64,000 bases of DNA, taken from Streptosporangium minutum (lineage in GTDB: Bacteria; Actinomycetota; Actinomycetes; Streptosporangiales; Streptosporangiaceae). The notes under the pieces are model-generated. The model saw only the letters and a list, made by a program, of their open reading frames with translations, searched no databases and was not told the DNA's origin. Below, one piece after another: positions 26,603 to 45,444 of this stretch. The translations under genes were made by a program, and so were the position numbers. Position 1 is the stretch's first letter. Each line of letters opens with the position of its first letter. The DNA is taken from contig NZ_NGFP01000014.1 in assembly GCF_002149035.1 (NCBI RefSeq), forward strand, positions 1 through 64,000, read 5' to 3'.

Positions 26603-27436
26603 TCAGAGGTGGCAGACGGAGCAGCCAGCCTCGTCATCATCGGAGTCGAGGGCGTCACTGAGGACTTCCAGGAGGGGCCGGTTGGGCTTGATGCGCTTGG
26701 CGGCGCGCTCCAACGCTGCTTGGTGCTTGGCCTCGATCTCGTCTTTGCGCGCTATCAGCTCCGGAAGGGACTCCCCCTGCGACCAGGTGTAGTTGCGGCC
26801 CTTCATGGCGGTGTGGCGGTATCGGACCTTCTCCTCGTACTCGACGGCCCGTTCGTACAGGTCGGGGTGCCGCTCCTTGAGGCCGACCCACTCGTGCTTG
26901 CGCTGGAAGAAGCAGAAGTAGCAGCCTGAGCGAGTGCGCCACTCGTAGTAGTCGGGAAGACCGATGCCAGCCTCGTCGAGGATCCGCATCACTCCGTCCT
27001 TGTCGATGCCGTCCTCGCGGAAGGGAAAGACGGCTTCAATATTCGGCTTGGTGCTGACGTAGCCGAGGCGGTTCTCGTCGGCGCGGATGGCGACGTAGGA
27101 GATGACCTTGTCATCACCGACCCAGTCTTCCAGAGGCTTGATCTTTAGGTTCTTGGTGCACCAGCGCATCTGGGGGCTGGGCAGAGTGCCCTGGTAGACC
27201 TCCATCCAGTGGTCGAAGTCGCGGTCGGCGTTCAGCCGCACGATCGACTTGCCCAAGGCGGCCTCAAGCCGATTGAGGTACTCGTAGGTCTCAGGCAGTT
27301 CGGCGCCGGTGTCGCAGAAGAAGTACTCCATCTCCGGGACTCGGTCGCGCATATAGACAGCGAGCGCGGAAGAGTCCTTGCCGCCCGAGATACCGAGCAC
27401 GTGCCGGACCTTCTTGGTGTCGACTCCTTCGGTCAT
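26603..27436 (-). CDS. sspD: SspD: PP-loop ATP pyrophosphatase of DNA phosphorothioation
   Basis: The product is 277 residues of the PAPS-reductase/DndC-like family. The PP-loop is LGISGGKDSSALAVYM near residues 14-29. Conserved Cys are in MRWCTKNLKIKP, SGCYFCFFQRKHEW and the C-terminal GCSVCHL, consistent with an iron-sulfur or sulfur-relay role. SspD activates the DNA backbone phosphate with ATP so sulfur can replace a non-bridging oxygen. Its ATG overlaps the sspC stop (ATGA). It is last in the sspA-B-C-D operon. Confidence 0.88.
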   Translation of the reverse strand: MTEGVDTKKVRHVLGISGGKDSSALAVYMRDRVPEMEYFFCDTGAELPETYEYLNRLEAALGKSIVRLNADRDFDHWMEVYQGTLPSPQMRWCTKNLKIKPLEDWVGDDKVISYVAIRADENRLGYVSTKPNIEAVFPFREDGIDKDGVMRILDEAGIGLPDYYEWRTRSGCYFCFFQRKHEWVGLKERHPDLYERAVEYEEKVRYRHTAMKGRNYTWSQGESLPELIARKDEIEAKHQAALERAAKRIKPNRPLLEVLSDALDSDDDEAGCSVCHL

Positions 27437-30400
27437 CCCTCTGCCTTCCTTTCACTCGCCGCTGTGGCGGCATCGGTCACGCGCTGGGCCAGGGCAGCTA
27501 GCAGAATGCGTGCGCCATCCGGGCCGAGCGCCTTCTCGGCCTGCTTCAGAACGTCGACGGCGAGGGTGTCGGCCTCGCCACGGACCTGCTCGGGCACGTA
27601 GACCAGGGTGCGCTGCTCTACGCCGGCGCTGTCGGTCAAGGTCAACAGCTGCGCGTCGAGCTTCTCTTCCCGGCCACGGATCTCACGCCCGGCATAGTGC
27701 AGGTGCCCGACGCGGTCGAGGGCTGCAGCCATCGTCCGGGCTTTCTGGGGGAAGACCTTGGCTTCGTGGTCGTCCCAGTCTCCGAGGGCGGAGTTGGTCA
27801 GGCGTACAACGATGGGCTCAAGCCAGTCGTCGTCTTCGAGGCTGTCACTGAGGACGAAGTCGACGAAGCCCCGCAGTTCTGGTGCCAGCACGGCGTCTGC
27901 GAAGCCTCGCAGACGGGCCGCGAGCTGGGTACGCAGCTGGGACAGTTCGGCCAGCAGACGGAACTCCTTGGCCAGTACTCGGACGACCTCGGCGCGCAGC
28001 CGATTGTCGATCGCGACGAGTTCGTCCGCAGCCGCGGTGAGGCGTTCGACGTAAGTGGTCGCCGCTTCCGTGTTGCCGCGCGTGCGTGCCGGGACCTCGG
28101 GGAGACCGAGAGCTTTCGGCAGTGCATGGAAGACCAGCTTGTCGGGGTCCACCGCCTTCGCGATGGTCGCGCGCACGGCGCGAGCATCGGCAGAGATGTT
28201 CTTGGTAGTGCGGGCGTACTTGTTGAGATCGGCCACCCGCATGATCAGGGCACTGGCGACCGCGAGCAGGTCTGGGTTGCGTAGAGCCTTGGAGCGTGGT
28301 GTTTCCACGCCGAGGGAGATCATCAGCTTCTTAATAATGCTGCCGCGCTGGCCGTCTCCGGCCGGCGTGTACTTCACCGAGAAGCGTCCCGGGCCCTTAA
28401 CGAGGCGTTCGACCACGTCGATGGTCAGCCGGGGCAGGTAGGTGCCTTCCTCGAACAGGGCGACATCGTGCCGGTGGATGACGAGGGCTGGCACGAGGAA
28501 CACCGGAATGACTCCGGCCTTGAGCCCGAAGGGCGGGCTCATCAGGGTCCGGATGACCTCCTCGATGCTCAGGCGCTCGGTGGCACCGGTGAGTACCTCG
28601 TTCAACGCGTTCCAGGCGGGCTGGGCGTGCTCGTGGCCTTCCCCAGGCGAGGAGAAGCCGTAGGGAAGCAGGCTTTCCTGATGGCTCTCGGCCTGGGCTA
28701 CGCCGTTCTCGCGGTGCAGGCCGAGGTAGGCCAGCACGCCGCTGTACATGGCGCGCTCGGGCTTATAGCCGCCAGTGAAGCCAAGGTTCTTCTGCCCTGA
28801 TGCAGAGAACATGGCCGTCAGCAGTATGCCGCGAGCCTGGGCGGCCTGGCTGGTCAGGACATGGCGGCCGAGCATCTCGTTGCGGATGTGGGGCGTGTGC
28901 GGGTACACCGATTCGCAGGCCAGGGAGACCAGTCCGCTGAGGCTCCGGGCCGTCAGGTTGGAGGCGGCTGGTTCTTCGCCAGGGGCGATGCCGCTATGCC
29001 ACAGGCTCCACGACGCCTCGGAGGATGGCGGGTAGAAGGCATCCTGCATCAGCTCCCGCAGTTCCGCTTCGGCCTGCACAATCCGCTCGGTGACTTCCCG
29101 CCGGGCGACGTGGTCGAGGCCCTGGTCATTGCTGAGTTCCTTCAGCGCGACCAGGTAGGTCGCCGTCGTGAGCACCACGTCAGGGTGTGGCGTGGTGCTG
29201 ACGAGCACTGGCAGGGGCGAGTCGACGTTCGGCCGGTCGGCATCGGTGCCGAGGTGGAAGACGACGAGACCGTCGGCAGGCTCCTTCAACTTGTCCGGGG
29301 CGGCAACTGTCTTGGTCTCCGGACCGCTGACCGCAGTGTAGAACACGCGCATCATGCCGGTGACCTGGCTATGGCGGCCAGCCACGAATGCTTGCGGGAC
29401 GAGACTGGCGAGACGATCGATGACCGAGGCGTCATCGAAGTGGCTAATGATTTCCTTGAGCCGGCCGTCGATATCGACGTCCGTGCCCTGCCAGACCCGG
29501 TACTCGCCACTGAACTCACGGTGGACCACGAAACCCCGGCGGACAAGGTCGGCGAGTCGCTCTTCGAGCGCCGTGAAGGCATCGGGGTCAGCGACCTCAG
29601 TGGGATCGTGGAGAGCGAAGTGGATCATCGGCGCGGTGGCGCTGAGGACCCCATCGGAGTCGATCAGGTTGAGGACACCGATGGTCTTCAGAACGTCCTG
29701 ATCGGGGTCCGGGAGGCCGTTGGCGTCCCGGATGCGCGAGTCGACCTCGATCCACCGGCTCGCGTTGGCGGAAGCGAGCAGGGTGGTTCGCCCAGAGTTG
29801 AGGAAGTAGTCGTACAGCTGCGGCAGTCGCACCGTGCTGGCACGGTCGGCCTTCTCGCTGCTGTGCCGGGCCAGCGAGTGGCGGACGGTATTCGGTTCCC
29901 CGCTGTTGAGGAAGCCTGAGATGCTGCGGTCGTGCTGGCCAATTTGGGCAGCGAGGATCGGTGCGGCGAGGGCCGTGATGGGGTGCAGCGGATAGAGGTC
30001 CGCGAAGTGTTCGGGTCCGAGTTCAGCCAGGACCCCTAGGCCATGGTCCGTCCAAATTTCCGCGGACGCTTGGGCCGACGCGGTAATCAGTGCCTGTCCT
30101 GCTGGGCTGACCGCCGAGTGGTCGAGGTAGCGCCGCAGCAGGTGTAGGGAGTCGCCGTAGTGAGGGACGAAGGTGATGTCCTCGAAGCGCCCTTGGATCT
30201 TGGCCCATTCACGGGTTTTGAGTTCGCTGGACCGTGAGGCGTAGTCCATGAACGACAGGTGTTGCAGGGTCATTAGGTAGACGGGCAGCCCATTGGGGCC
30301 GGCCGACTTCTCCGCGAGTTCCTGCAGCAAGAACAGGTCGTGCTGGGCATCAGCGAACTCGTTGTGGCCAGCGAGGTGTTCCAGCGTCTTGCCGAACTCG

Positions 30401-31014
30401 TCGATGACGAGGAGCAGGGGCTGCTGCCCGTCCGCCGTCAGTGCGGCAACCGCGTCGAGGATGTCCTTGGCGCTGGCAGTGTCCGGGTCCGCGCACGCCG
30501 CGAGGGCCGCGGCGATGGCTTTCGAGATGCGCTTGCCCCAGCGTCGCTCCGCCGCGGTGTGGAGGGCCCGGGCGAGCGTGGCGACCAGGGGTTCACGGCG
30601 TGCGGTGGCTACGCCACCGAGGAACCCGTCAGGGGCGATGGCGTCGCGTGCTGCGGCCAGGCGCTGAGCGAGGGCGGGGCTAGACTCGTCGAGGATGCGC
30701 TCGGCCTCGCTGCGCCGCTGGGCGTCCCGCCCGAGCAAGGCATCGATGAAGTTGGACAGAGTGGACTTACCGGATCCGTATGGCCCGGTGAACGACCAGG
30801 CGCGGGTCCGGCGTTGGTCGGCAAGTGCGCTCGCGATGCGTTCCAGAACGTCGACCGCCCGGGCGCCGACGTAGGGGTCGTGTAGGGCGTCCGTGACGTC
30901 CCGCTCGAGGTTCGTCGAGCGCATCTGAGAGCCGACGAGTTCGAGGCCAGCGGGGAACTGCGGGGCGGAGGTCGTGGGGCTGCCGGGGGTCCGCGTGGGG
31001 GTTGCGGTGGTCAC
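27433..31014 (-). CDS. sspC: SspC: large P-loop ATPase of DNA phosphorothioation
   Basis: The product is 1193 residues. Walker A GPYGSGKSTLSNFIDALLG lies near residue 75 and Walker B LLLVIDEFGKTLEHLAGHNEF near 205. The long helical remainder has no second catalytic domain I recognise. Size, ATPase type and position between DUF4007 and PP-loop genes fit SspC, which powers the single-strand phosphorothioation complex. It overlaps both neighbours by 4 bases (ATGA), so the operon is tightly coupled. An alternative label is simply a large defence-island ATPase, but the context makes SspC the better call. Confidence 0.82.
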   Translation of the reverse strand: MTTATPTRTPGSPTTSAPQFPAGLELVGSQMRSTNLERDVTDALHDPYVGARAVDVLERIASALADQRRTRAWSFTGPYGSGKSTLSNFIDALLGRDAQRRSEAERILDESSPALAQRLAAARDAIAPDGFLGGVATARREPLVATLARALHTAAERRWGKRISKAIAAALAACADPDTASAKDILDAVAALTADGQQPLLLVIDEFGKTLEHLAGHNEFADAQHDLFLLQELAEKSAGPNGLPVYLMTLQHLSFMDYASRSSELKTREWAKIQGRFEDITFVPHYGDSLHLLRRYLDHSAVSPAGQALITASAQASAEIWTDHGLGVLAELGPEHFADLYPLHPITALAAPILAAQIGQHDRSISGFLNSGEPNTVRHSLARHSSEKADRASTVRLPQLYDYFLNSGRTTLLASANASRWIEVDSRIRDANGLPDPDQDVLKTIGVLNLIDSDGVLSATAPMIHFALHDPTEVADPDAFTALEERLADLVRRGFVVHREFSGEYRVWQGTDVDIDGRLKEIISHFDDASVIDRLASLVPQAFVAGRHSQVTGMMRVFYTAVSGPETKTVAAPDKLKEPADGLVVFHLGTDADRPNVDSPLPVLVSTTPHPDVVLTTATYLVALKELSNDQGLDHVARREVTERIVQAEAELRELMQDAFYPPSSEASWSLWHSGIAPGEEPAASNLTARSLSGLVSLACESVYPHTPHIRNEMLGRHVLTSQAAQARGILLTAMFSASGQKNLGFTGGYKPERAMYSGVLAYLGLHRENGVAQAESHQESLLPYGFSSPGEGHEHAQPAWNALNEVLTGATERLSIEEVIRTLMSPPFGLKAGVIPVFLVPALVIHRHDVALFEEGTYLPRLTIDVVERLVKGPGRFSVKYTPAGDGQRGSIIKKLMISLGVETPRSKALRNPDLLAVASALIMRVADLNKYARTTKNISADARAVRATIAKAVDPDKLVFHALPKALGLPEVPARTRGNTEAATTYVERLTAAADELVAIDNRLRAEVVRVLAKEFRLLAELSQLRTQLAARLRGFADAVLAPELRGFVDFVLSDSLEDDDWLEPIVVRLTNSALGDWDDHEAKVFPQKARTMAAALDRVGHLHYAGREIRGREEKLDAQLLTLTDSAGVEQRTLVYVPEQVRGEADTLAVDVLKQAEKALGPDGARILLAALAQRVTDAATAASERKAEG

Positions 31015-32111
31015 GCGGTCTCCTCAAAGAGTGGCTCGGCGGTGTCGGCGATATTGGCGGTGTTGGCGGTGAGTTCCTTCTGCTCGGCCTCGGCGAGCCT
31101 GGGGAACTTGGCGGCCCATTCTTCGCGGGTAGGGAAACTGGGGCAGCGGGTGACGAAGTCGTACTGCTCGTCGAGCACTTCCCAAGCCAGTGCGAAGGGG
31201 TCGGCCGCGAACGCGAGGCTGCGCTGTCCCACGGCCTCGGTCAGGTTGAGTTGCGGGTGGTCCGCGGCGACCTTCTGCAGCGCCATGACGATCTCGTTTT
31301 CTCCGACGCGGAAGGCTCGCCCCGGGGAACCCGGCTCGTTGGCCAGGCGGGCAACGGAGATCGAGTTGGCTTGACGGGAAAACTTGGCGGCGTAGTCGAG
31401 GCAGGCATAGGCCAGGACCCGGGCGGGTAGCGTGGTGCGGTGCCCGCTAGTGAACTGCCACTCCGGCTTGCCACGCGTGCCGACAAAGGTAAGGAGGTCA
31501 AGGTCGCGGAAGGGGCAAGCGAGCAGGTCCTCATAGCTGCCGGGGGAGCCGGCCTTCTCCGGAGCGCTGCGCGCGTACATCTTGGTCAAGCAGTCGATAT
31601 CACGGACGATCGAGGCTTCGACCGGGCCCTCCTTGTAGGAGAAGTTCACATGCCGGGTGACGACCTGCGTCATGTCCGCCACCGTGAATCGGGAGAACGG
31701 CGCGAGGTGGAAGGACGTGTACCAGGTCGGCGCCCAGCATTTGGCCCCGGGACGGGAAGAGACCAGCCACCAGTGCAGCAACCACAGGCTGCCATTTTCC
31801 TCCAGATAGGGGTCGGCGCCGTCATCGTCGAGCAGCCAACGGGCCTCCCACGTGGGGAAGGAGTGCTTGGAGCGCGCCCCGCTCGTCGGGTAGTGCTCGC
31901 GGGTCAGCTTGAAGGCCCGCGACCAGTAGCGCATGGCGTTGACCATGTTCTTGCCCACACCGAACAGCACCGGGGCGTCATCCGCGAGGAACGCGCTCGG
32001 ATCATCTTTGACCTGCGTATACGCCTTGTGCAGCCAGCCGAAGCGGGGCGCGAAGGTCTCATGTCGCGCGAAGGAAAAATGGGCGGCTTCCCCAAGCCGG
32101 CTGTCTGACAT
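31011..32111 (-). CDS. sspB: SspB: DUF4007 DNA-nicking subunit
   Basis: The product is about 366 residues from MSDSRLGEAAHFSFARHETFAPRFGWLHKAY. The FARHETFxPRxGWLxKAY signature and GVGKNMVNAMRYWSRAFKL identify DUF4007, the domain of SspB. SspB nicks one DNA strand during phosphorothioate incorporation in the Vibrio system. The upstream in-frame ATG (32126) adds five residues; I prefer 32111, which opens the conserved block, but cannot exclude the other. The gene lies 58 bases after sspA and overlaps sspC. Confidence 0.88.
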   Translation of the reverse strand: MSDSRLGEAAHFSFARHETFAPRFGWLHKAYTQVKDDPSAFLADDAPVLFGVGKNMVNAMRYWSRAFKLTREHYPTSGARSKHSFPTWEARWLLDDDGADPYLEENGSLWLLHWWLVSSRPGAKCWAPTWYTSFHLAPFSRFTVADMTQVVTRHVNFSYKEGPVEASIVRDIDCLTKMYARSAPEKAGSPGSYEDLLACPFRDLDLLTFVGTRGKPEWQFTSGHRTTLPARVLAYACLDYAAKFSRQANSISVARLANEPGSPGRAFRVGENEIVMALQKVAADHPQLNLTEAVGQRSLAFAADPFALAWEVLDEQYDFVTRCPSFPTREEWAAKFPRLAEAEQKELTANTANIADTAEPLFEETA

Positions 32112-32169
32112 CCGGAACCTCTCCATGTTCGATGCGATTGCTCTAACGAGGTGTTAAACGGGGTAACAG

Positions 32170-33321
32170 TCAGCGAGGGCCATCGGCTTCGGCCAGCGAG
32201 GAACGAACCTGAGTCACGGCCCGTACGACGGCTTGCGCCGCGTGCTCAATCTCGGCGTCCGTGGTGGCGTAGCCCAGCGAGAAGCGGATCGTGCTGTCTG
32301 CAGCCTCCCGGGACAGTCCCATCGCCAGGAGCACGTGACTCGGCGTCGGGGCACCGGATGCACACGCGCTGCCCTCCGAAGCGGCGACGTCGGGCATGGC
32401 CGCCAGCACGGCATCCGCTGGCACCCCCGGGAAGGTGATACTCGTTACACCGGGGAGTCGCTGATCCCGCCGGCCATTGAGACGGCAGTCAGGCAGAGCA
32501 AGGGTCAGCAGGCGTTCGAGGCGGTCGCGCAGTGCGGCGACACGCTCGGCTTCCTCACCAAGGTTGCGTCGGGCGGCATCGGCTGCAGCACCCAGACCGA
32601 TGATCCCCGCCACGTTCAAAGTGCCTGCGCGCCAGCCACGCTCTTGCCCACCACCCACCAGGAGCGGCCGGTGCGGCAGTGGCGTCCCACGCCGCACATA
32701 CAGCGCGCCGACACCCTGCGGGCCACCGAACTTGTGGGCCGACAGCGACAGCAGGTCGACATCGAGTTCAGCAACGTCTACAGGCAGGCGACCGACGATT
32801 TGGGTGGCGTCCGTGTGAATGAGGGCGCCGGCCTCACGGACCGCCTTGGCCACGACTCGAAGGTCGGTTAGGACACCGGTCTCGTTGTTCGCTCCCATCA
32901 GGGAGACGACCCCCCCGCTTCGTGTCACGAAGACCTGCTCCAAGGCGTTGAGATCCACCAGGCCGTCGGAGCCGACCTGTAGCAGCACAAGATCCTCTGG
33001 TCGCTCGGCGGTCACCATCCGGGCTGTCTCCAGAACAGCAGGATGCTCTGCCGGGCTCGTCACTAGCGAATTTCCAGGTGTGTAGGCAGAGCGGAGGGCC
33101 AGGTTGTTCGCCTCGGTAGCCCCGGACGTGAAGATGATCTCGCCCGGTGAGCAGTTAAGCAGGCCGGCTAGCTGTCGACGAGCAAGGTCGACCCGATGCG
33201 CGGCTTGCCGTCCCGGTTGGTGCATGCTTGAGGCGTTTCCGACCGACTGCATGGCTTCAATGACGGCTGCAGCAGCCTCAGGCCGGATCGGTGCGGTGGC
33301 ATTGTAGTCAAGGTAGGACAT
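32170..33321 (-). CDS. sspA: SspA: cysteine desulfurase (IscS/DndA-like)
   Basis: The product is about 383 residues from MSYLDYNATAPIRPEAA. It is a PLP-dependent class V aminotransferase fold: cofactor-binding TSGATEANNLAL, AEHPAVLETA, Asp in IHTDATQIVG, Schiff-base Lys in SLSAHKFGGPQGVG, and the sulfur-carrying Cys in SEGSACASGAPTPSHVL. It supplies persulfide sulfur for DNA phosphorothioation. The open frame extends to 33471, but the family starts near YLDYNAT, so 33321 (or ATG 33345) is likely. It is first gene of sspABCD. Confidence 0.9.
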   Translation of the reverse strand: MSYLDYNATAPIRPEAAAAVIEAMQSVGNASSMHQPGRQAAHRVDLARRQLAGLLNCSPGEIIFTSGATEANNLALRSAYTPGNSLVTSPAEHPAVLETARMVTAERPEDLVLLQVGSDGLVDLNALEQVFVTRSGGVVSLMGANNETGVLTDLRVVAKAVREAGALIHTDATQIVGRLPVDVAELDVDLLSLSAHKFGGPQGVGALYVRRGTPLPHRPLLVGGGQERGWRAGTLNVAGIIGLGAAADAARRNLGEEAERVAALRDRLERLLTLALPDCRLNGRRDQRLPGVTSITFPGVPADAVLAAMPDVAASEGSACASGAPTPSHVLLAMGLSREAADSTIRFSLGYATTDAEIEHAAQAVVRAVTQVRSSLAEADGPR

Positions 33322-33798
33322 ACCCGCCCCATGAGACCCGTTCATCATCTGCCACCCGTCACTTGTGTCGCACATCAATGTACTGCTGGTGGAAAGCTCG
33401 TCCCGCATCCGGGTTTCCACCAGGAGCAAGCCGATCTTAGCCATGCGGCAAGATCTACTGCTTGAAATCACTCAGACGCGTGACATCACAGGCCGCCTAC
33501 TGAACGAATGTTCTACACCTGGGTGCGGTGCGCGCAGCTTGCCTGCAGCAAGATCAGCCCAAGGGGTCGGGGATTCTGGTCAGAGAGCGACAAATCCCGC
33601 CCCTGGCTGAGGTTTTCGCCTAATAGCGCCCCTGTTGTCAGCGCCCCTGATTAGGGTGGTTCGCACGCTGCGACGTTGCGGTGCCGGCACTTTGGGGCGG
33701 TGCTTGGCGTGCTCGAACTGGGGGTGGAAGTTCATGACGACTGCGCCGACCGAGGCGCGTGCAGGCTGGTGTCCGCTACGCAACGGGCAGGTGAGTCC
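33322..33798. promoter_or_regulatory. Divergent control region between sspA and the helicase operon
   Basis: There is no gene of confidence in 480 bases. This region must hold promoters for the leftward sspABCD and the rightward helicase/GHKL/PLD operon, so both arms of the system may be co-regulated here. A direct repeat AGCGCCCCTG occurs at about 33624 and 33640. GGCAGGTGAGTCC precedes the GTG at 33799. Confidence 0.5.
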
Positions 33799-35424
33799 GT
33801 GACGGCTTGGTCACCGGGGATGTCGTTCAAGGCACTCCTCGCTGGTGCGCCGGTGTCATACATCCGGGCACATCTCGGCGAGCAGCTGTGTGCCCTGCTC
33901 GATCTGATCGAGGGGGGCACAGCGCCAGACGACCGGCTGCGGGCCGTTGCCCCGATCGCTATCGACGCCGAGCGCCTGGTCGCTGACGAGGCCGAACGCT
34001 CCACTCTCATAGAGATGGTTCCGAGCCCCAAGCAGGCCGAGCTGGCGCAGCGGCTTGGCTCGGTAGGCGATGGGCAGGCACCGCTGGGCTATCTGCGGAG
34101 CCTGAAGTGGACGGCGGACGAGCGGCGCGAGCTGCTTGAGTTCTTCGGCTTCACGATCGACCGGGTGCCGTCCCTCCCGCCGGCGTTCAAACAGGAGGCG
34201 GCGCCCGAGTATGCCTTGTTCCCGCATCAGCGTCATGCGGCGGCCCAGGTCAAGGAACTGCTGTACGACGGCTCGCGGCGGACAGTGCTCCATCTGCCCA
34301 CTGGCGTTGGCAAGACCCGAACAGGCATGAGCCTGATCTGCGATCATCTACGGCAGCACGAACCGACCGTGGTGGTGTGGCTGGCGCACGGGCAGGAGCT
34401 GCTGGAGCAGGCCGCCTCAGAGTTTGAACGCGCCTGGGCCAAGGTCGGTGACCGTCCGCTCCCCCTTCTTCGTGTATGGGGCAACGCCCCTGCAGAGCTC
34501 ACGGAGGTGACCGATGGGCTGGTCGTTCTCGGCCTGGAGAAGGCCGTCTCGACTGTCAAGTCGGATTCGCAGTTCCTGGCCACCCTTGCGGCACGCAGCA
34601 CCCTGACCATCTTCGATGAGGCTCATCAGATCATCGCTCCCACTTTCCAGAGGGTGGTCGACGAACTGACGATCCGCCATGACACTAGCCTCCTGGGGTT
34701 GACGGCCACGCCGGGACGGACCTGGGCGGATATATCCAAGGACGAGGAGCTTTCCGACTACTTCTCCCGACAAAAGGTGATGTTGGAGATCGAGGGCTAC
34801 ACCAACCCGGTGACAGCCCTGATTGAGCAGGGATACCTGGCCAAGCCGCTGATGAGGACAGTGGCCTCTGAGCCGGGTATGCACCTGTCGGCTCAGGATC
34901 AACAGCTCCTTGCGCGGTCGTTCGACATCCCGGCCGTGATGATGGCCGAGCTCGCGCGGGACGAGCAGTGGAACCTCAAGATCGTCCAGACCATCATGGA
35001 GCTGCTCAAGCAGCACCGCCGGATTCTGGTGTTCGCCGCCTCTGTCGACCACTGCCGGCTGATCGCGGCCGTCCTGTCCGCGGCTGGCATCGATGCTGAG
35101 TTCGTGACCGGCGAGTCCTCCCCTCGGCACCGCAGCCAGGTGATCTCTCGGTTTAAGGGGGCCGGTCGGCGCCCCATGGTTCTGTGTAACTTCGGGGTCC
35201 TGACGACCGGCTTCGACGCCCCGGCCGCTAGCGCTGCAGTGATCGCCCGCCCGACCAAGTCCCTGGTGCTCTACAGCCAGATGGTCGGCCGCGTCATCCG
35301 CGGCCCAAAGGCTGGCGGCACCGCCACCTGCGAGATCATCACCGTCGTGAACCCGGAGCTTCCCGGGTTCGGCGATGTGGCAGAGGCATTCACCAACTGG
35401 GAAGACGTATGGGAGACATCGTGA
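33799..35424 (+). CDS. DEAD/DEAH superfamily 2 helicase (phosphorothioation-linked restriction, candidate SspFGH component)
   Basis: The product is about 541 residues from GTG 33799. SF2 motifs are I HLPTGVGKTRTGMSL, II TIFDEAHQIIA, III LGLTATPGRTW, V GVLTTGFDAPA and VI YSQMVGRVIRG. An N-terminal extension of about 130 residues precedes motif I. Helicases of this build are linked to dnd/ssp clusters as restriction components (TIGR04095-type, from memory). The frame opens at 33676, but AGGTG before GTG 33799 and loss of conservation upstream favour the shorter form. It overlaps the GHKL gene. Confidence 0.8.
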   Translation: MTAWSPGMSFKALLAGAPVSYIRAHLGEQLCALLDLIEGGTAPDDRLRAVAPIAIDAERLVADEAERSTLIEMVPSPKQAELAQRLGSVGDGQAPLGYLRSLKWTADERRELLEFFGFTIDRVPSLPPAFKQEAAPEYALFPHQRHAAAQVKELLYDGSRRTVLHLPTGVGKTRTGMSLICDHLRQHEPTVVVWLAHGQELLEQAASEFERAWAKVGDRPLPLLRVWGNAPAELTEVTDGLVVLGLEKAVSTVKSDSQFLATLAARSTLTIFDEAHQIIAPTFQRVVDELTIRHDTSLLGLTATPGRTWADISKDEELSDYFSRQKVMLEIEGYTNPVTALIEQGYLAKPLMRTVASEPGMHLSAQDQQLLARSFDIPAVMMAELARDEQWNLKIVQTIMELLKQHRRILVFAASVDHCRLIAAVLSAAGIDAEFVTGESSPRHRSQVISRFKGAGRRPMVLCNFGVLTTGFDAPAASAAVIARPTKSLVLYSQMVGRVIRGPKAGGTATCEIITVVNPELPGFGDVAEAFTNWEDVWETS

Positions 35425-37295
35425 CCAGCGACGGCAGCAACTACCGGATCGTCAGTCCCTCTCTGACCGTCAAAGCCATGCGGGACAGCGGCTACAAAAA
35501 CACTGCCTACGCCCTCGCCGAACTGATCGACAACAGCATCGACGCCAAGGCCACCCTCGTGGAGGTCTTTGCCTGCGAGAACCCCGTGAAAGTCGGCGCT
35601 CGGACCAACCACCGCGTGGAGACCATCGCCGTCCTCGACAACGGCCACGGCATGGAGCCGCCGCAGCTGCGGCGCGCCCTGAAGTACGGTGACGGGCAGG
35701 GCGTCGACCCCGCCCGCATCGGCCGTTTCGGCATGGGCCTGCCCAACTCCAGCATGTCCCAGTGCACCCGGCTCGACGTCTGGTCCTGGACCAACGGCGC
35801 GGGCAACGCCATGCACACATACCTCGATCTCAAAGAGATTGAGGCAGGGCTGATCGACGATGTCCCCGAACCCACATACGACCCGCTGCCCGACTACTGG
35901 CGGGACCTGAGCGAGGGGCTCGGTGACACCGGCACGCTCGTCGTCTGGACGAAGCTGGACAAGGTCAACTGGTACGGAGCCGCCGCCACCCTGAAAAACA
36001 CCGCCGAGCTGATCGGCCGCGTCTACCGGCACTACCTACACGACGGACGCGTCGACATCCGAATGGCGCCCGTCCGCGAGGGCAAGGTCGTCGACGGCGA
36101 ATACCACGCCGTCCCCAACGACCCCCTCTACTTGATGGCGCCCACTTCCACCCCGGCGCCGTTCTCAGACAGGCCGATGTTCATGCCTTTCTCCATGGGC
36201 AGCGAGTCCGAGCCCGGCGTGACACGCTTCCCTGTGTTCCATGAGGGCAAGAAGCACAACATCACGGTCCGGGCCTCCATCGCTCGCCCAGAGGCACGGC
36301 GCGCCAATGTCGAAGGGCAGCCGTGGCCCGACGGCATCAGCCGCACGACCGACCCTGGAACTCTTCCGTGGGGCAAGCACGCCAGGCGCAACGTCGGCAT
36401 CTCGCTCGTACGCCAGAGCAGGGAACTCGATCTCGACGCATCCTGGGCCATTGGGTACGACCCGACGGAACGGTGGTGGGGCATCGAGGTGGAGTTCCCG
36501 CCGGAACTCGACACTATCTTCGGCGTAACGAATAACAAGCAGGGCGCCACTGTCTTCTCCTCCCTCGCTCACTTCGACTGGAAGGCCCACGCCGAGGCCG
36601 GCGAGTCTTTCAAGGGGTTCAAGGAGCGCCTTGCCGAGTTCAGCGATCCGGGTCTTCCTCTCATCGACCTCGTGCTCTACCTAGAGGAGAAGCTCCTGCC
36701 TGCCATCCGGCGGCAGCTGAAGCAGCAGACGGTCGGTACACGTAAGAGCAATAAGCGGCACGACGATGACGTCGCTTCTAGGGCCACCGACGCCGTCAAG
36801 CGCCGAAGCGAGGAGGGTTACACCGGCAAGACGGACGAGCTGGAGGAAGGGGCGACCACCGAGACCAAGCGGCAAGAACAGGTCGAGGCCCTCACCCAGC
36901 GGCACCACCTTGACGAGGACACTGCGCAGTCCATGGTCGAGGAGGCCCTTGAGAAGGATCTTCGCGCGCGGTGGATCTCCGGCTTCCAGGACACCTCCGC
37001 CTTCTTCAGCATCGACCTCATGGCTGGCATGCTGCAGGTGATCTTCAACGAGAAGCACCCCCTGCACGCTCAGCTGTTGGCCGTCCTTGAAGACGTCCCG
37101 GAAGACGCGGACGTGGACGACCTGCGCGACCGGCTCAACCGTGTCGCGGAGACCTTCAAGCTGCTGCTCTTCTCCTGGGCGCGTATGGAGGACGAGACCT
37201 ACCCCGACCGCGACCGCGAACGCATCGCGGACGCCCGCCGCGAGTGGGGACGGTACGCCCGTGACTTTGTGGACGGGAAGGCCAGCGACGCGTGA
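35421..37295 (+). CDS. GHKL (Hsp90/MORC-like) ATPase, partner of the helicase and PLD genes
   Basis: The product is about 624 residues. The Bergerat fold is explicit: N-box ALAELIDNSIDAKA (catalytic Glu and Asn), G1 LDNGHGME and G2 GRFGMGLPNSSMSQ. A transducer-like middle follows, then charged helical stretches (about 430-500) and a C-terminal domain. GTG at 35421 overlaps the helicase stop (GTGA) and has GGGAG upstream; ATG 35409 is the alternative. GHKL ATPases of MORC type occur in restriction contexts as DNA clamps. Together with its helicase and PLD neighbours it looks like a three-subunit nuclease machine. Confidence 0.82.
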   Translation: MTSDGSNYRIVSPSLTVKAMRDSGYKNTAYALAELIDNSIDAKATLVEVFACENPVKVGARTNHRVETIAVLDNGHGMEPPQLRRALKYGDGQGVDPARIGRFGMGLPNSSMSQCTRLDVWSWTNGAGNAMHTYLDLKEIEAGLIDDVPEPTYDPLPDYWRDLSEGLGDTGTLVVWTKLDKVNWYGAAATLKNTAELIGRVYRHYLHDGRVDIRMAPVREGKVVDGEYHAVPNDPLYLMAPTSTPAPFSDRPMFMPFSMGSESEPGVTRFPVFHEGKKHNITVRASIARPEARRANVEGQPWPDGISRTTDPGTLPWGKHARRNVGISLVRQSRELDLDASWAIGYDPTERWWGIEVEFPPELDTIFGVTNNKQGATVFSSLAHFDWKAHAEAGESFKGFKERLAEFSDPGLPLIDLVLYLEEKLLPAIRRQLKQQTVGTRKSNKRHDDDVASRATDAVKRRSEEGYTGKTDELEEGATTETKRQEQVEALTQRHHLDEDTAQSMVEEALEKDLRARWISGFQDTSAFFSIDLMAGMLQVIFNEKHPLHAQLLAVLEDVPEDADVDDLRDRLNRVAETFKLLLFSWARMEDETYPDRDRERIADARREWGRYARDFVDGKASDA

Positions 37296-38194
37296 CCGAG
37301 CCCGCCCACATCTGGCGGCAGATCGAAGAACTGATGACGGGCGCCCACGGACGCGTAACCCTTGTGGCGCCCTTCATCAAGCGAGAAGTTCTGGCAGCTA
37401 CACTCTCCGCCGTTCCCGCCTCTGTCGAGAGCATCGAGTGCATCACGCGGTGGGTTCCCGAGGAGGTAGCGGCAGGGGTGTCGGATCCGGAGATCATTGA
37501 GCTCGCAGAGGACGACAAGCGGCTGCGCATCGCCCTGTGCCCGAGTTTGCACGCCAAGCTCTACCTCACAGGCGAGCGCTGTCTAATCGGGTCGGCCAAC
37601 CTGACAGGGAAGGCCACCGGGCGGGTCACGAATCCGAACATTGAGATCCTTGTCGAGGTGTCCGCGACACATCCGGAAGTCGGCCGGGTACTCGCCGAGA
37701 TCGAGGCATGCGCGATTGAGGCGGCGCCCCACATGGCCGCCCTGGTGAGAAGACAAGCGGAGCTGCTGAAGGAACACCGCCCGGCTGCCTCCGACCAGCT
37801 GCGAGAGGAAGCCCAGCAGGGCTGGTACCCGGTTACACGACGCCCGGAGGCCGTCTACCCGTACTACTGCGGAAGGGCTCGATTCGGGCGATCCGTAGAA
37901 GCAGCCATCCTGCGGGACCTCGCGTTCCTAGGCGTACCGGCAGGCTTGACCGAGGCGGAGTTCTCAGACTGGGTCGAAAGCCGCCTGCGGGAGATTCCTG
38001 CCCTCCGGGCGCTGGTGGAGGGTGATCGCCTGACCAACGTGGACCTGCAGCATGCGCTGCAGGAACAGGCAGGCTTAACCGATGAGCAGGCCAAAAGAGC
38101 GACCGAGACCATTGCCGCGTGGCTTCGGCACTTCGGCCGCTTCTACACCGATGTAGGAACGTGGGAGCTCAGGCACGGGCGGGAGCTGTCGTAA
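37292..38194 (+). CDS. PLD-family nuclease
   Basis: The product is 300 residues. It has one HKD-type motif, SLHAKLYLTGERCLIGSANLT (His-x-Lys, then Ser/Asn of the GSANLT element). The first half begins GRVTLVAPFIKREVL as in PLD nucleases, and a helical C-terminal part of about 150 residues follows. Single-HKD proteins act as dimers. The GTG start overlaps the GHKL stop by 4 bases. It is the likely DNA-cutting subunit of the triad. Confidence 0.82.
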   Translation: MTEPAHIWRQIEELMTGAHGRVTLVAPFIKREVLAATLSAVPASVESIECITRWVPEEVAAGVSDPEIIELAEDDKRLRIALCPSLHAKLYLTGERCLIGSANLTGKATGRVTNPNIEILVEVSATHPEVGRVLAEIEACAIEAAPHMAALVRRQAELLKEHRPAASDQLREEAQQGWYPVTRRPEAVYPYYCGRARFGRSVEAAILRDLAFLGVPAGLTEAEFSDWVESRLREIPALRALVEGDRLTNVDLQHALQEQAGLTDEQAKRATETIAAWLRHFGRFYTDVGTWELRHGRELS

Positions 38195-38385: not shown

Positions 38386-39036
38386 ATGGCTCAAGTGCGG
38401 GTCCCGTACCTGCTCGGGCACGCTGAGATCGCTTCCCTTTTCCGAGTTGAGCGCCAAACGTCACAGAAGTGGCGCACAGAAGGCACACTTCCCGAGCCCG
38501 ACCTAGTCGCTTCCGGCAACCCGTACTGGCTGCTAACGACGGTGCTGCACATCAGCGGCGTCGGAGACCGTCGAATTGATGAGGGGCAGCTCGGAGCGTA
38601 TAAGGCCAGCAGCCCTCACGGCTATGCCCTACAGGATGACGAACAACTGCCTGCCATCCTCGGCATTCAGGAGGTAGGCCGTGTCCTCGGTCGAGATGCC
38701 CAGGCGGTTTCCCGGTGGCGCAACCGGCGACGTATCGCCGAGGCGGACCTCGTCCTCTCCGGTTCTCCACTCTGGCTCTTGGAAACGATCCTTGCGGACG
38801 CGCAACGCAGGCAGCGGCCCGTCGTCACCGCCGAGATCGCCATGCTGCGTGCGGGACAGCGCGCCCCACAGAAGCCTCGCGGCCGCAGGTCCAGCAATCC
38901 CCCCGTGGTGCGCCCGCCGCAAGAGGTGCTGCCCGCAGCACGAACGTTCACGAGCGCTGACCAGGCCGCCGCCGTGGAGTTCCTCGCATCGGTACTGGCC
39001 CAGGGCTACTCCGTCGTGATCAAGCCTCAGCCCTGA
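38386..39036 (+). CDS. Protein with two AlpA/MerR-like HTH units
   Basis: The product is 216 residues. Two homologous halves are visible: LLGHAEIASLFRVERQTSQKWRTEGTLPEPDLVASGNPYWLLTTVL and ILGIQEVGRVLGRDAQAVSRWRNRRRIAEADLVLSGSPLWLLETIL. Both read as HTH plus wing. A Pro/Arg-rich linker and a short C-terminal helix (SADQAAAVEFLASVLAQGY) follow. It is probably a DNA-binding regulator or a specificity subunit of the neighbouring genes. It lies 191 bases after the PLD gene and 88 before the PP-loop gene, same strand. Confidence 0.65.
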   Translation: MAQVRVPYLLGHAEIASLFRVERQTSQKWRTEGTLPEPDLVASGNPYWLLTTVLHISGVGDRRIDEGQLGAYKASSPHGYALQDDEQLPAILGIQEVGRVLGRDAQAVSRWRNRRRIAEADLVLSGSPLWLLETILADAQRRQRPVVTAEIAMLRAGQRAPQKPRGRRSSNPPVVRPPQEVLPAARTFTSADQAAAVEFLASVLAQGYSVVIKPQP

Positions 39037-39124: not shown

Positions 39125-40054
39125 TTGATAAGCTGGCTTGCAGTCAATAATCTCTCTCACATGTCGATTCTGCAGCGCGCCCACGGAGCCCATAGCGCCG
39201 ACTCAGCCGACTCCGACCCCCAGGCCGCTTCCGGCCAGCCGAGCCACACTGCCGTGAAGGTCGTCTCCTTCGGAGGTGGCGTGCAATCAACAGCACTGCT
39301 CGTGCTGGCGGCCCGTAGAGAGATCGACTTTCGGACCTTCCTCTTCGCCAACGTGGGCGACGACAGCGAGCACCCGGCGACGCTCGCCTACGTTCGTGAG
39401 ATCGCAATCCCGTACGCGGCCCGAGCGGGGCTCGAAGTCCAGGAGCTTAGGCGGCGCCGACGTGACGGAACCACCGAGACGCTCATGCAGCGCATGAACC
39501 GGCCGGCCACGCGATCGATCCCCATCCCAGTGCGCATGGCGAACGGGGCTCCGGGCCGACGTAACTGCACAACAGACTTCAAAATCAAGGTGATCGGGCG
39601 GTGGCTCCGAGAGCATGGAGCCACCGCAGAGCATCCGGGTGCGGTGGGAATCGGTATATCGCTCGACGAGATCCACCGCGCCAACCGGCGCCGACGAGAG
39701 CCTCACGAGCTCATCGAGTACCCTCTCCTCGATCTTGGGCTGCGCAGGAGTGACTGCGAGCACATCATTATGGAGGCCGGCCTGCCGGTGCCGCCGAAAA
39801 GCTCCTGCTTCTTCTGCCCCTTTCGCACCGTCGACGCGTGGCGGCACCAGCGCAGGCACGAACCCGAGCTGTTCGCCCTGTCGGTGCAGCTTGAGGAGAC
39901 GATCAACGAACGCCGGGCTGCACTCGGGCGGGATTCCGTGTATCTCACGAGGTACGGTCGCCCGCTCGCGCAGGCAATCCCTGAAGACGGCTTGGCAGAC
40001 AGCACCGTCGACGAGGGGGATGGTTCCTGCGACTCCGGCTGGTGCATGACCTGA
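39125..40054 (+). CDS. Second PP-loop (PAPS-reductase-like) enzyme
   Basis: The product is 309 residues from TTG 39125 (GGGAG six bases upstream); ATG 39161 is possible. The PP-loop appears as VVSFGGGVQSTALLVLAA. Cys motifs are RRNCTTDFKIKVIGRWL and KSSCFFCPFRT, plus a C-terminal CDSGWCMT. The family is distinct from SspD in sequence and is widespread in actinobacteria and their phages. It may act on nucleic acid or a nucleotide with sulfur or nitrogen transfer; the substrate is unknown. A strong terminator follows, so it ends the rightward transcript that starts at the helicase or at 38386. Confidence 0.75.
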   Translation: MISWLAVNNLSHMSILQRAHGAHSADSADSDPQAASGQPSHTAVKVVSFGGGVQSTALLVLAARREIDFRTFLFANVGDDSEHPATLAYVREIAIPYAARAGLEVQELRRRRRDGTTETLMQRMNRPATRSIPIPVRMANGAPGRRNCTTDFKIKVIGRWLREHGATAEHPGAVGIGISLDEIHRANRRRREPHELIEYPLLDLGLRRSDCEHIIMEAGLPVPPKSSCFFCPFRTVDAWRHQRRHEPELFALSVQLEETINERRAALGRDSVYLTRYGRPLAQAIPEDGLADSTVDEGDGSCDSGWCMT

Positions 40055-41408: not shown

Positions 41409-43862
41409 ATGCCCACCCAGGCCAGAGAGATATTTGAGGCGCAGAGCAAGAGCCTCCGCGAGTTGCTGTCGGACAATGGCCTCGGCCTGTACCTGCCGCC
41501 GTATCAGCGGCCGTATGGGTGGGGTAAGGACAAGGTCGAGAAGCTGCTCGACGACACCCTTCACGGTCTGAAAAATCTCGGTGAGGCTCCCGACAGCTTC
41601 ACCTTCCTGGGCACCGTGATTACCATCCACGACGTCAATCACGTTACGGTGCAGCCGATTGTGAAACCGGAAGTGCCCTCCAAGGTACTCACCGTGATCG
41701 ACGGGCAACAACGTCTATCGAGCCTGCTCCTTCTACTCGTAAGCCTTCATAATCTGACCCGCCAGCACTCATGGAAGGTCTTCAAGGGCAAGACACCCGA
41801 TTCCACGGACACTGCGCGTGCATCGCTTTACTCAGAAACTGTCGGCATCCTGCAGACCCTCAGCACTGCTTTCTATGAGCGAAAGAATTTCGGCGACGCG
41901 CCGATCTACCCTCGACTGATCCGCGCCTTCGTCGACCAGTGGTCTAAGGATGCAAAGCTCAAACAGTATGAATCTCCAATTGCGAACCTGATCTACACCT
42001 ACTCAGTCGAGGCAGACGCGGAGCCCCCGACCGTGAAGCCGACGGACTTCAGGCCGCTGGCGCGTCCCGGTGCAGGTGAAGGCGAGGGCGATCTAATTAG
42101 GCGGTTCGGCGAGATCCGTGCCGCACTGACCAAGCTCGCTCAGCGCACAACGATTGAGGAGCTTGAGGATTTGCCGCCACTCTCGACCTTGGCCAATCAG
42201 ATCGAGTTTCAGCGCGCGCTGTTCAACCATGAACTCGACCCCAAGCTGTGCAGATGGCTTCGCGAGCTGGAGGACGAGCCCGAGGCTGTCTTGATGCGGC
42301 TCGTGATGTTCGCTGCGTACGTCCTAAACCGCATTGCGCTAACTGTGGTGCAAGGCAAGGACGAGGACTATGCCTTTACCATCTTCGAGTCGCTGAACAC
42401 GACCGGTGAGCCCTTGACCGCCTTCGAAACGTTCTTGCCGCGCGTTGTGATGGCGGAAAAGGTTCAGGACTACCGAGGCTCTGACGCGCACGAGCGCATG
42501 AAGGCTGTCCAGAGCTACCTCGATCGATTTGGCGTGGGGGAGAAGCTGCAGAATGCAACCCGTGAGCTGCTGGTGACGTTTGCCCTCGCGGAGACGGCCA
42601 AGAAGCTCTCGAAGCGGCTCTCCGACCAACGCGTCTACATGAAGGACACCTTCGACAACCATAAGGATTCCGTCGATGCTCGCGCTGCGTACTTACGCCA
42701 CCTGAGCGACACGGCGACCTTCGTTGGTACAACGTGGGAGCCAGCGAAGGAAGCTCCTCGTCAGCTCGTCGGACTCCCCGCCTCCGCCATGACGGACACG
42801 GTCAAGCTCTGTCTAGCCTTCCTAAACGACCTCAACCACACAATCGCCATTGCACCCTTGTTGCGGTTCTACTCCGAGGCCGTCCATGCAGAAGAGGGCG
42901 AGGAGCGGGACAAACGAATCGCGGAGTTTGAAAAAGCTATCAAGGCGACCACCGCCTTCACGGTTTTCTGGCGAGCGACTCGAAGTGGCACCGGGAACAT
43001 CGACAGCCAATATCGATCCGTCATGGCGGGTGACTCGTTAACTGGCATGGGACCTCTTGCGCGGGCGGTGTCGAACTCAGAGCAGCCTAAGCCAACCGTG
43101 GACGCCGAAGCCCTGAAGGAGGAGCTCGCGGCGCGCTTGTCCAATACGGACAAGAAGTACGGCGGTATCCCGAACCTTGCATCGTTTCTAGCGGCGGCGA
43201 AATCTTTGCCTCTCTACAAGAACAGCCGACCACTGACGCGCTTCCTTCTGCTGGCGGCCTACCACGACACCATTGAAGACCCCGATAATCCTGGCCTTAT
43301 AAAGCAGGGAAAGGCGGGCGTGGCTCCGTGCTTCACATCAGACGGCTGGTCCGATGAAACACACTTCACGATCGAGCACATCGCTCCTCAGCAAGCGACT
43401 GGCGGATGGGATCAGGACTTTTACAGCGAGAAGGGGATCGCTGACAAGATCGTTCACAAGATCGGCAACTTGGTCCTTGCGCCAGGGGCCGCCAACACGT
43501 CGCTGAGTTCGCGACCGTGGACTGAAAAGAAGGTGTTGTACGCAGCACTTGGTGCTACGACCACCGAGGAGGCCAAAACCATTCTCAACGATTCGGGCTT
43601 GGCGTTCGCGCAGTCGACCGAGGAACTGGCCCAAATGTCTCGTTACCTGCCGCACCTGCGAGCACTCGGGCAGCGCGACGCGGAGTGGGACCCGGCTTTC
43701 ATGGATCGGCGAGCTGAAGTTCTCCTTCGACTCGCCTACGCACGACTGAAGGGCTGGCTCGGCATCGCGTGGTCGGAATCGACAACTGATCCGGTGGCCC
43801 ACCATGTCGATGACGAGGTTGAACCTGACGAAGATGACGAGTCCGCGGAGAACCTCGTCTGA
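41409..43862 (+). CDS. sspE: SspE: DUF262-DUF1524 phosphorothioation-sensing nuclease
   Basis: The product is 817 residues. The N-terminal DUF262 NTPase has LYLPPYQRPYGWGKDKVEKLLDD and the hallmark VIDGQQRLSSLLLLLVS (DGQQR). Middle DUF262 features include EDYAFTIFESLNTTGEPLTAFE. The C-terminal DUF1524 HNH-type nuclease shows FTIEHIAPQ and HKIGNLVLAPGAANTSLSSRPWTEKK. In the described Ssp system SspE senses phosphorothioates, hydrolyses nucleotide and nicks phage DNA. It lies 7.9 kb from sspA on the opposite strand and is complete. The C-terminus is strongly acidic (DDEVEPDEDDESAENLV). Confidence 0.88.
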   Translation: MPTQAREIFEAQSKSLRELLSDNGLGLYLPPYQRPYGWGKDKVEKLLDDTLHGLKNLGEAPDSFTFLGTVITIHDVNHVTVQPIVKPEVPSKVLTVIDGQQRLSSLLLLLVSLHNLTRQHSWKVFKGKTPDSTDTARASLYSETVGILQTLSTAFYERKNFGDAPIYPRLIRAFVDQWSKDAKLKQYESPIANLIYTYSVEADAEPPTVKPTDFRPLARPGAGEGEGDLIRRFGEIRAALTKLAQRTTIEELEDLPPLSTLANQIEFQRALFNHELDPKLCRWLRELEDEPEAVLMRLVMFAAYVLNRIALTVVQGKDEDYAFTIFESLNTTGEPLTAFETFLPRVVMAEKVQDYRGSDAHERMKAVQSYLDRFGVGEKLQNATRELLVTFALAETAKKLSKRLSDQRVYMKDTFDNHKDSVDARAAYLRHLSDTATFVGTTWEPAKEAPRQLVGLPASAMTDTVKLCLAFLNDLNHTIAIAPLLRFYSEAVHAEEGEERDKRIAEFEKAIKATTAFTVFWRATRSGTGNIDSQYRSVMAGDSLTGMGPLARAVSNSEQPKPTVDAEALKEELAARLSNTDKKYGGIPNLASFLAAAKSLPLYKNSRPLTRFLLLAAYHDTIEDPDNPGLIKQGKAGVAPCFTSDGWSDETHFTIEHIAPQQATGGWDQDFYSEKGIADKIVHKIGNLVLAPGAANTSLSSRPWTEKKVLYAALGATTTEEAKTILNDSGLAFAQSTEELAQMSRYLPHLRALGQRDAEWDPAFMDRRAEVLLRLAYARLKGWLGIAWSESTTDPVAHHVDDEVEPDEDDESAENLV

Positions 43863-43957: not shown

Positions 43958-44608
43958 ATGGATCAGATGATCAGGGTTCTCGCCCGGGGCGGAGACTGCC
44001 TGGCCGACATCGCGCTCCTGCGGGCCCGGCCCGAGCGGTTCAGCCCTGTGGCCCCAGACCCGACCGTCTCCCGCCTGATCGCCCGACTGGCCGCCGACGC
44101 GGCGCGAGCGTTGAAGGCAATCCGCGCCGCCCGCGCCAGCGCACGAGCACGCGCCTGGACGCTGGCCGATCACAACGCGCCCGGCGCCAACGGCGAACTG
44201 ATCCCCCTCGACCTCGACGCCACCATCGTCGTCGTCGCCCACTCCGATAAGGACCAGGCCACACCGACCTGGAAGAAGACCTTCGGCTTCCACCCGATGA
44301 CGGTCTTCGCCCACCACGAAGCCGCCGGTTCCGGCGAATCTCTGGCCATTACGCTCAGGCCGGGCGACGCCGGCTCCAACACCGCCGCCGACCACATCGA
44401 CACCACCCGGCTCGCCCTGGCCCAACTGCCCAAACAGCGTCGCTGCCAGGTCCTCATCCGTACCGACTCCGGCGGCGACACCCACGATTTCCTGTCCTGG
44501 CTGACCTGGCCGGGCAGGTGGCTGAACTACTCCATCGAGTTTACCCTCACTGACGACATCCAGACTGCGATCTTGCGGTTACCGAAGACCGCGGCTCCGG
44601 CGCGCTGA
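43958..44608 (+). pseudogene. IS1380-family transposase, internal fragment
   Basis: The translation matches the middle of IS1380 transposases as I know them: DQMIRVLARGGDCLADIALLRARPERF, LDLDATIVVVAHSDKDQATPTWKKTFGFHPM, GSNTAADHIDTTRLALAQLP, VLIRTDSGGDTHDFLSWL. The N-terminal and C-terminal parts are missing; after LRLPKTAAP the sequence changes to a different transposase. It is a relic. Confidence 0.8.
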
Positions 44609-44949: not shown

Positions 44950-45444
44950 CTAATGATCTGCTACTTGTCGAAGATGGTTCTCAAATGATTCGATAATCAG
45001 TGCGGCAGAATGTTGGACTACAGACAGTTGTACCGTTGGGTTAGATCTGACCTTACTTATAACCACCATAGGCGGCTTTTGGCGCGCAAGTATATTTCTG
45101 AGTGCTCGCTGAACAAGGTACTCAACTGCTTCTCTATGACTAGTCTCAACAGATAAGAACTCAGGCAAATTTCCCATATCGGCCCAGAACACAACTAGAT
45201 CGTCCAGCACACTCCAAGCAAACTCATCATACTCCTGGAGTCTTCGCCTAAAAGAGGACCTCTCAAGAGCTCGCCCTAAATGGTCACCCCATCGGCCTAG
45301 AATTCCGTTGCGTCCGATGGTCATTCCTATGTAAGCGGCTTTTACTTTCTTTGAGTAGCCGCAGTAAATGTAAGCACGGGCCCGACATAAACCAGGGTCG
45401 CCAACGGCAGCGGCACCCCAATCCCCTGCATCCTCAATTTCCAT
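44950..45444 (-). CDS. GIY-YIG-like endonuclease, partner of a GHKL ATPase
   Basis: The product is 164 residues. The N-terminal half has the GIY-YIG pattern: ARAYIYCGYSKKVKAAYIGMT (first strand YIY, second YIG), then an Arg in GRNGILGRWGDHLGRAL that fits the catalytic Arg, and a possible late Glu. The rest is helical. It starts 9 bases after the stop of the upstream GHKL gene and is surely co-transcribed. Both genes are AT-richer than their surroundings. The predicted role is DNA cleavage controlled by the GHKL clamp. The GIY strand is degenerate, hence moderate confidence. Confidence 0.6.
   Translation of the reverse strand: MEIEDAGDWGAAAVGDPGLCRARAYIYCGYSKKVKAAYIGMTIGRNGILGRWGDHLGRALERSSFRRRLQEYDEFAWSVLDDLVVFWADMGNLPEFLSVETSHREAVEYLVQRALRNILARQKPPMVVISKVRSNPTVQLSVVQHSAALIIESFENHLRQVADH

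Follow-up and report, generated by a model that had tools for sequence, protein, structure and literature searches.

Three adjoining genes of the soil actinobacterium Streptosporangium minutum, which read outward from sspA and encode an SF2 helicase, a MORC-like GHKL ATPase and a single-HKD PLD nuclease, belong to a conserved, usually gap-less three-gene unit that is almost confined to the company of ssp and, rarely, dnd modification genes. This trio behaves like a partner dedicated to SspABCD for which other modules can substitute. We consider it likely to be a restriction-type module that serves SspABCD, the system marking DNA with sulfur as phosphorothioate (PT), and that is distinct from SspE, SspFGH and PbeABCD. 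When 2,678 sspBCD clusters were surveyed, about 84% of them had neither SspE nor SspFGH, and further restriction counterparts were asked after (Wang et al., 2021; PMC8092258). In the sample studied here, the trio is commoner beside sspBCD than SspE or SspFGH, and it may account for many of such "orphan" sspBCD clusters.

The Trio and Its Neighbors in the Window

The window, by which we mean the whole stretch of 64,000 nucleotides that was analyzed, carries the trio on the forward strand and sspABCD on the opposite strand. The first gene of the trio (33820..35424) encodes a helicase of 534 aa with ResIII and Helicase_C domains, a RadD/SauUSI-like core and an N-terminal extension of ~120 aa. The second (35409..37295) encodes a GHKL + S5 ATPase of 628 aa with a C-terminal helical/beta extension, and the third (37292..38194) a PLD-superfamily nuclease of 300 aa, with a single HKD motif and a helical C-terminal domain. 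Across a divergent intergenic region (33322..33819) lies sspA for a cysteine desulfurase (32170..33321; PADLOC SspA 434 bits; start placed by homology), followed by DUF4007-type sspB (31011..32126; PADLOC SspB 409 bits), sspC for a BrxC-like AAA+ ATPase (27433..31014; PADLOC SspC 1380 bits), and sspD for a PAPS-reductase-like sulfurtransferase (26603..27436; Pfam PAPS_reduct 39 bits), which adjoins sspC as in relatives.

The initial annotation had described a helicase, a MORC-type GHKL ATPase and a single-HKD PLD nuclease divergent from sspABCD, and this architecture stands, the genes being co-directional and their motifs intact. The gene ends need adjustment. The operon had been started at 33799, but the helicase start kept in relatives is ATG 33820 (MSFKALLA...). 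The genes had been joined by 4-base GTGA overlaps, which is right for the GHKL/PLD junction (37292-37295), while the helicase/GHKL junction has two possible forms: GTGA (35421-35424) or, with ATG 35409 as the start codon (an MGD start kept in four homologs), an overlap of 16 bases. The divergent region is indeed common to sspA and the trio, but its size, given before as 480 bases, becomes ~498 bp when sspA is started by homology near 33321 (MSYLDYN); the corresponding gap measures 497-502 bp in four relatives, and the region is partly conserved when aligned. Homologs of all three trio genes are found in many phyla, and chance is therefore excluded.

Another restriction arm of the locus is located 3 kb downstream of the trio: sspE (41409..43862, forward strand; PADLOC SspE 1076 bits), encoding the known PT-sensing GTPase/HNH effector. 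The trio is thus not needed for restriction there. Between the two are a gene for an accessory BldC-like HTH protein (38386..39036, forward strand; NCBIfam HTH_BldC 27 bits, below cut-off) and, paired with it, a gene for a second SspD-like, PAPS-reductase-type protein (39125..40054, forward strand; PADLOC SspD 48 bits). The same pair recurs at ssp loci without the trio (L105 13448-15105; L108 5124-6847), so that it occurs both with and without the trio, and it perhaps has an accessory sulfur-transfer or regulatory role. The ssp region is flanked on one side by a Mu/rve-type transposase gene (15894-17111, reverse strand) and on the other by a partial DDE transposase gene (43958-44608, forward strand), an arrangement consistent with a mobile defense island. 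A second GHKL/MORC gene also exists in the window (45454-47124, reverse strand; PF13589 88-90 bits), whose product matches the MORC signature GhXhhpXXRhl exactly (GFFVYRNKRLI). The adjoining gene encodes a small protein whose UzuA match is weak and whose N-terminus is GIY-like (44950-45444, reverse strand; 17 bits).

Co-occurrence with PT Modification Genes

The trio-type GHKL and sspC were searched separately in two draws of genomes, 297 from the same family and 398 from Pseudomonadota, neither of which was preselected for the other partner. Among the family genomes, sspC is found in nine and the trio-type GHKL in four, all of them within the nine (Fisher 4e-7); if the window's own genome is left out of the 297, three of three trio genomes carry sspC (Fisher 1.3e-5), and in the family genomes having both, the two sets of genes are close together. 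In 397 Pseudomonadota (draw center left out), ten genomes have sspC and five the full-length trio GHKL, again all within the ten (Fisher 3e-9), and all these Fisher tests are to be read with the fact that related genomes are not fully independent. With the center included, the GHKL profile separates six genomes with full-length matches (E <= 1e-125) from fourteen in which just the ATPase domain is matched (E >= 1e-30); the six are all sspC genomes, and each has the trio near sspBCD. Altogether, the trio is present in 8 of 18 sspC genomes, and no full-length trio GHKL was found in ~670 sspC-less genomes of both draws. The initial annotation had named, as the outcome that would speak against its idea, homologs living mostly without dnd or ssp genes; instead, every one of the eight trio genomes in these two draws, the window's own not counted, carries sspC.

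When the scan was widened to 84,980 species genomes, 79 loci were found, in Actinomycetota, Pseudomonadota, Bacillota, Bacteroidota, Chloroflexota and other phyla. The trio family comprises 76 loci, the window counted in. The PT linkage proposed at the outset was borne out by this neighborhood survey: sspB, sspC or sspD lies within 10 kb of the trio in 68 of the 76 loci, and in 48 of 51 where flanks are long. Under a strict distance rule, the helicase gene is adjacent to the GHKL gene in at least 66 and the PLD gene in at least 64 of the 76. The position of sspC varies, as it can be on either side and either strand of the trio (24/20/16/7), and the linkage therefore outlives rearrangement. Eight loci have no close ssp gene. 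In five of them (L052, L069, L079, L080, and L084), sspC is located elsewhere in the genome, and in a Planktomarina MAG (L075, 8340-17098) the genes directly downstream of the trio encode DndC (324 bits), a DndD/PbeC-type ATPase and, in the DndE position, a protein of 143 aa; there the trio is paired with dnd, not ssp, and a C5 methylase gene lies upstream. In the other two, which are metagenome bins (L047 and L061), sspC was not found, and L047 is also without the PLD gene. Thus, ssp or dnd genes are present in the genomes of 74 of the 76 loci. The parts of the trio are not always together, since the GHKL gene stands beside ssp genes with neither helicase nor PLD gene adjacent in Psychrobacter (L077 and L078).

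The trio is also found beside sspBCD on plasmids of Roseobacter, Pannonibacter, Mesorhizobium, Planktothrix, Trichormus and Hymenobacter. On Trichormus plasmid A, the genes run in one direction in the order sspB-sspC-sspD-two small genes-DndB-like-helicase-GHKL-PLD-sspA. DndB/DGQHR-type genes adjoin the trio in the cyanobacterial plasmids and in Roseobacter (L161 5851-8157; L160 6061-8397; L157 12785-14038), the copy of L161 matching PADLOC DndB with just 17 bits. Another recurring pair near trio or ssp genes encodes a GIY-YIG-like protein (GIYAWYYR) and a protein of ~760 aa (L061 4330-7246; L065 3376-6379).

Do the trio and SspBCD move as one block? Correlation of distances between loci is 0.81 within the trio, 0.81 within SspBCD and 0.61 across them, with bootstrap differences that exclude zero, these values being descriptive because the pairs are not independent. 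The trio and SspBCD are two units traveling partly separately, as expected of separable restriction and modification modules.

Sharing of the Restriction Slot

To see who occupies the neighborhood of sspC, we took 18 loci found via sspC alone, eight from family genomes (window's own left out) and ten from Pseudomonadota (center left out). Eight of them have the trio, which is the commonest partner, five have PbeA/PbeC-like genes, three have SspFGH and two have none of these, and there is no overlap (two-sided Fisher 0.001); SspE is also present at one of the eight trio-bearing loci. The PbeA-like (PLD-helicase) and PbeC-like (ABC ATPase) genes stand beside sspABCD in L105, L106, L107, L108, and L132, of which L106 and L132 are confirmed by PADLOC (PbeA 574 and 617 bits) and the remaining three are assigned by visual inspection, as the proteins of the same gene pair begin alike. 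Trio, Pbe-like genes and SspFGH thus replace one another, which is the pattern expected of alternative restriction modules of one modification system. A family of ~860 aa proteins with an "LYVHR" N-terminus is also encoded near sspBCD (L127 12661-15231 and L135 16737-19325, both reverse strand); the L127 copy has no PADLOC match, and the family is a possible further Ssp partner.

A variant of the trio is found in Brucella, Agrobacterium, and Aminobacter, where the helicase is without intact ATPase motifs and the PLD protein is replaced by one with a VDILW...QVKSSK stretch (motif-poor helicase, GHKL ATPase and endonuclease-like protein: L069 8445-12844; L162 5705-10107; L165 8415-12865). This variant set stands beside SspFGH in L069 and L162 (Brucella and Agrobacterium) and beside sspABCD in L165. 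The Brucella copy of the replacing protein matches the "Endonuclease" effector model of PADLOC (E 6e-18). Unrelated to PLD, this endonuclease-type protein occupies the same gene position, and it gives a hint that the third gene of the trio encodes the cutter.

Motifs and Predicted Folds of the Three Proteins

The helicase matches PF04851 (69 bits) and PF00271 (52 bits) in Pfam, and its best phmmer matches in PDB are RadD (6jde) and SauUSI (7clg). Of 32 non-redundant homologs, at least 95% keep the motifs PTGxGKT, DEAH, TATPGR and QMxGRxxRG. The best PADLOC match of this protein is PbeA with 83 bits, restricted to the helicase part (245-438 of 672).

The GHKL protein matches Pfam HATPase_c_3 with 72 bits and keeps all the ATP-binding motifs (E38, D41, N42, D77xGxG, G105xFGMG, and K377), which are invariant in the alignment. 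Its AF2 model (pLDDT 81.6) is matched by VIA to Morc3 (Z 20.9), MORC4 (Z 19.5) and SMCHD1 (Z 19.2) over residues ~7-444, and also to MutL, all these matches lying within Z 17-21. The S5-domain motif that aligns to MORC GhXhhpXXRhl reads GhShhRxxREh, with E339 in place of the hydrophobic residue before the last position. Given this substitution in the MORC signature, the trio GHKL may be a sister, paraMORC-like family. No match to it was found in 50,697 phage records.

In the PLD protein, the single motif H87xK89...G100SxN103 is kept, and H87, K89, G100, S101 and N103 are invariant in 18 homologs. The AF2 model (pLDDT 90) finds SauUSI as its best VIA match (Z 15.5, rmsd 2.5 A, 144 residues), and it also matches BfiI and R.NgoAVII (Z 12.0 for the latter). 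The PLD fold and the helicase sequence each point to SauUSI, a PLD-helicase fusion that depends on ATP and cleaves modified DNA. This suggests that the trio is a split version of a SauUSI-type machine with a GHKL ATPase added, fold likeness alone not establishing function.

Comparison with Known Systems

SspFGH is similar to the trio in being a three-gene module beside sspBCD, compatible with SspE, whose proposed target is DNA without PT (PMC8092258). In sequence, helicase, GHKL and PLD have no relation to its proteins, which are SspF (Walker A, ~600 aa), SspG (~510-570 aa) and SspH (FtsK-like, ~1800 aa). The initial annotation had left open that the three genes are SspFGH orthologs. The PADLOC profile comparison (E<=0.001) turns this down, since the SspF, SspG and SspH models match no trio protein while they recognize a true SspFGH locus of Brucella haematophila (L113), which adjoins sspCD, with 814, 722 and 2420 bits, respectively; blastp of the trio against an SspFGH set gave nothing meaningful. 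DndFGH shares PT-linked restriction with the trio, as does TIGR04095 (dnd_restrict_1). DndF, DndG and DndH gave no match at the same threshold, and TIGR04095 reaches 44.5 bits against a cut-off of 600, with the helicase core only. The profile check suggested for SspF/G/H, DndF-H and TIGR04095 thus places the trio outside all of them, and the trio is separate in sequence from these systems as profiled. MZA was also rejected (MzaB 45-68 bits, at the domain level; NCBIfam 68 bits against a cut-off of 850), as were DISARM DrmC and Zac, whose matches are weak and domain-level, the NCBIfam ones falling far under cut-offs.

PbeABCD, described with dnd genes (Xiong et al., 2019; PMC6459918), resembles the trio in its PT linkage and in PbeA, a PLD domain fused to an SF2 helicase. 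It differs in this fusion, in the ABC ATPase PbeC, in the small PbeB/D and in its pairing with dnd; the trio has helicase and PLD split and a GHKL ATPase instead of the ABC ATPase. Membership in PbeABCD was rejected, as PLD and helicase are encoded by separate genes and the operon in the window has no PbeC. ATP-dependent restriction enzymes such as SauUSI and the NgoAVII/CglI type likewise combine a PLD nuclease with an SF2 helicase. SauUSI, unlike the trio, has an SRA domain, cuts at methylated or hydroxymethylated cytosine (PMC12707154) and has no GHKL partner; Pfam detected neither an SRA nor a B3 domain in the trio proteins. Finally, a role in restriction-modification systems with methylases has been predicted for MORC-type GHKL ATPases that go together with SFII helicases and HKD domains (Iyer et al., 2008; PMC2292703). 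Such MORC/paraMORC operons share with the trio a GHKL + S5 ATPase beside an SFII helicase, sometimes with HKD domains, and a predicted restriction function, but they were described with DNA methylases, and PT, PAPS reductase and dnd/ssp are absent from that text (PMC2292703). Two species of that study, Nitrococcus and Anabaena variabilis, have the present trio beside sspABCD (L037 and L161).

Possible Roles of the Trio

How might the three proteins work? Judging from the operon structure, they may form one complex. By analogy with MutL and MORC, the GHKL ATPase would dimerize on ATP and clamp or load on DNA, the SF2 helicase would translocate along DNA, and the PLD protein would cut or nick where the scanned DNA has no PT mark, while the PT marks made by SspABCD would spare host DNA. 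Such a set would probably attack unmarked phage DNA. It is to be noted that no viral DNA cleavage was reported for PbeABCD despite its PLD domain (PMC6459918), and the domain is thus no proof of cleavage. Near absence of the trio without PT genes fits alike a toxic enzyme that the mark blocks, as in SspFGH or DndFGH, and an enzyme that the mark licenses, as in SspE. In the latter, the trio would be silent until PT-marked host DNA licenses attack on unmarked DNA, and it would be harmless without SspABCD. SspE of the same locus acts in this way (PMC13251355), PbeABCD is not toxic without PT (PMC6459918), and strict dependence on ssp genes fits equally well; against these stand the SauUSI-like architecture, which is of the direct-cleavage type, and Pfam results giving the trio no GTPase/DUF262-like PT sensor, so that we regard such licensing as a minor though serious possibility.

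A back-up suicide role, in which the trio cuts host DNA once a phage has inactivated the modification or restriction system, has been put forward as one alternative to explain the HKD-helicase effectors of dnd loci (Rakesh et al., 2024; PMC10853773), and accessory effectors are common at such loci. It seems unlikely here, as the trio is often the sole candidate restriction set beside sspABCD, for example in Actinomadura (L021) and on a Pannonibacter plasmid (L163). Could the trio instead serve modification, by remodeling or nicking DNA for PT installation by SspBCD, or by repair at PT sites in the fashion of MutL? The MutL/MORC-kind GHKL and the RadD-like helicase are repair-type folds, and dependence on ssp would follow here, too. 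The trio is missing, however, at 10 of the 18 sspC loci, eight of which have SspFGH or PbeA/C-like genes, and the published SspABCD modifies DNA without it (PMC8092258); a modification partner is therefore highly improbable. Least credible of all is an independent defense system that merely sits beside ssp genes in a defense island. Defense systems do cluster, and the second MORC gene and other defense-like genes are present in the window, but this explanation is already contradicted by the ~670 sspC-less genomes without the full-length trio GHKL, set against 8 of 18 sspC genomes with the trio, and by an ssp linkage that spans many phyla and plasmids.

Implications

We return to the trio as a dedicated restriction-type module of SspABCD. 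Taken further, and on balance slightly favored by us, it would be a third class of dedicated Ssp restriction modules, and no earlier PT-dependent class would have a MORC-type ATPase clamp as its basis. Its motor and cutter would be a SauUSI-like machine split in two, under the control of a MORC relative able to tell DNA apart by the backbone sulfur mark, and the class would explain a large share of "orphan" sspBCD clusters. A 2025 review gives dndFGH/sspFGH, sspE and pbeABCD as the branches of PT restriction. In the open-access library searched, which leaves priority unproven, we found no paper tying a GHKL/MORC ATPase, a helicase and a PLD protein to ssp. The trio is a concrete answer to the question of further restriction partners of sspBCD (PMC8092258), and testing it should be easy, since small segments and natural plasmids carry sspBCD together with the three genes.

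In eukaryotes, MORC ATPases are known for gene silencing. If the proposed role is true, the trio would make the response of a MORC ATPase to an epigenetic DNA mark accessible in a bacterial model.
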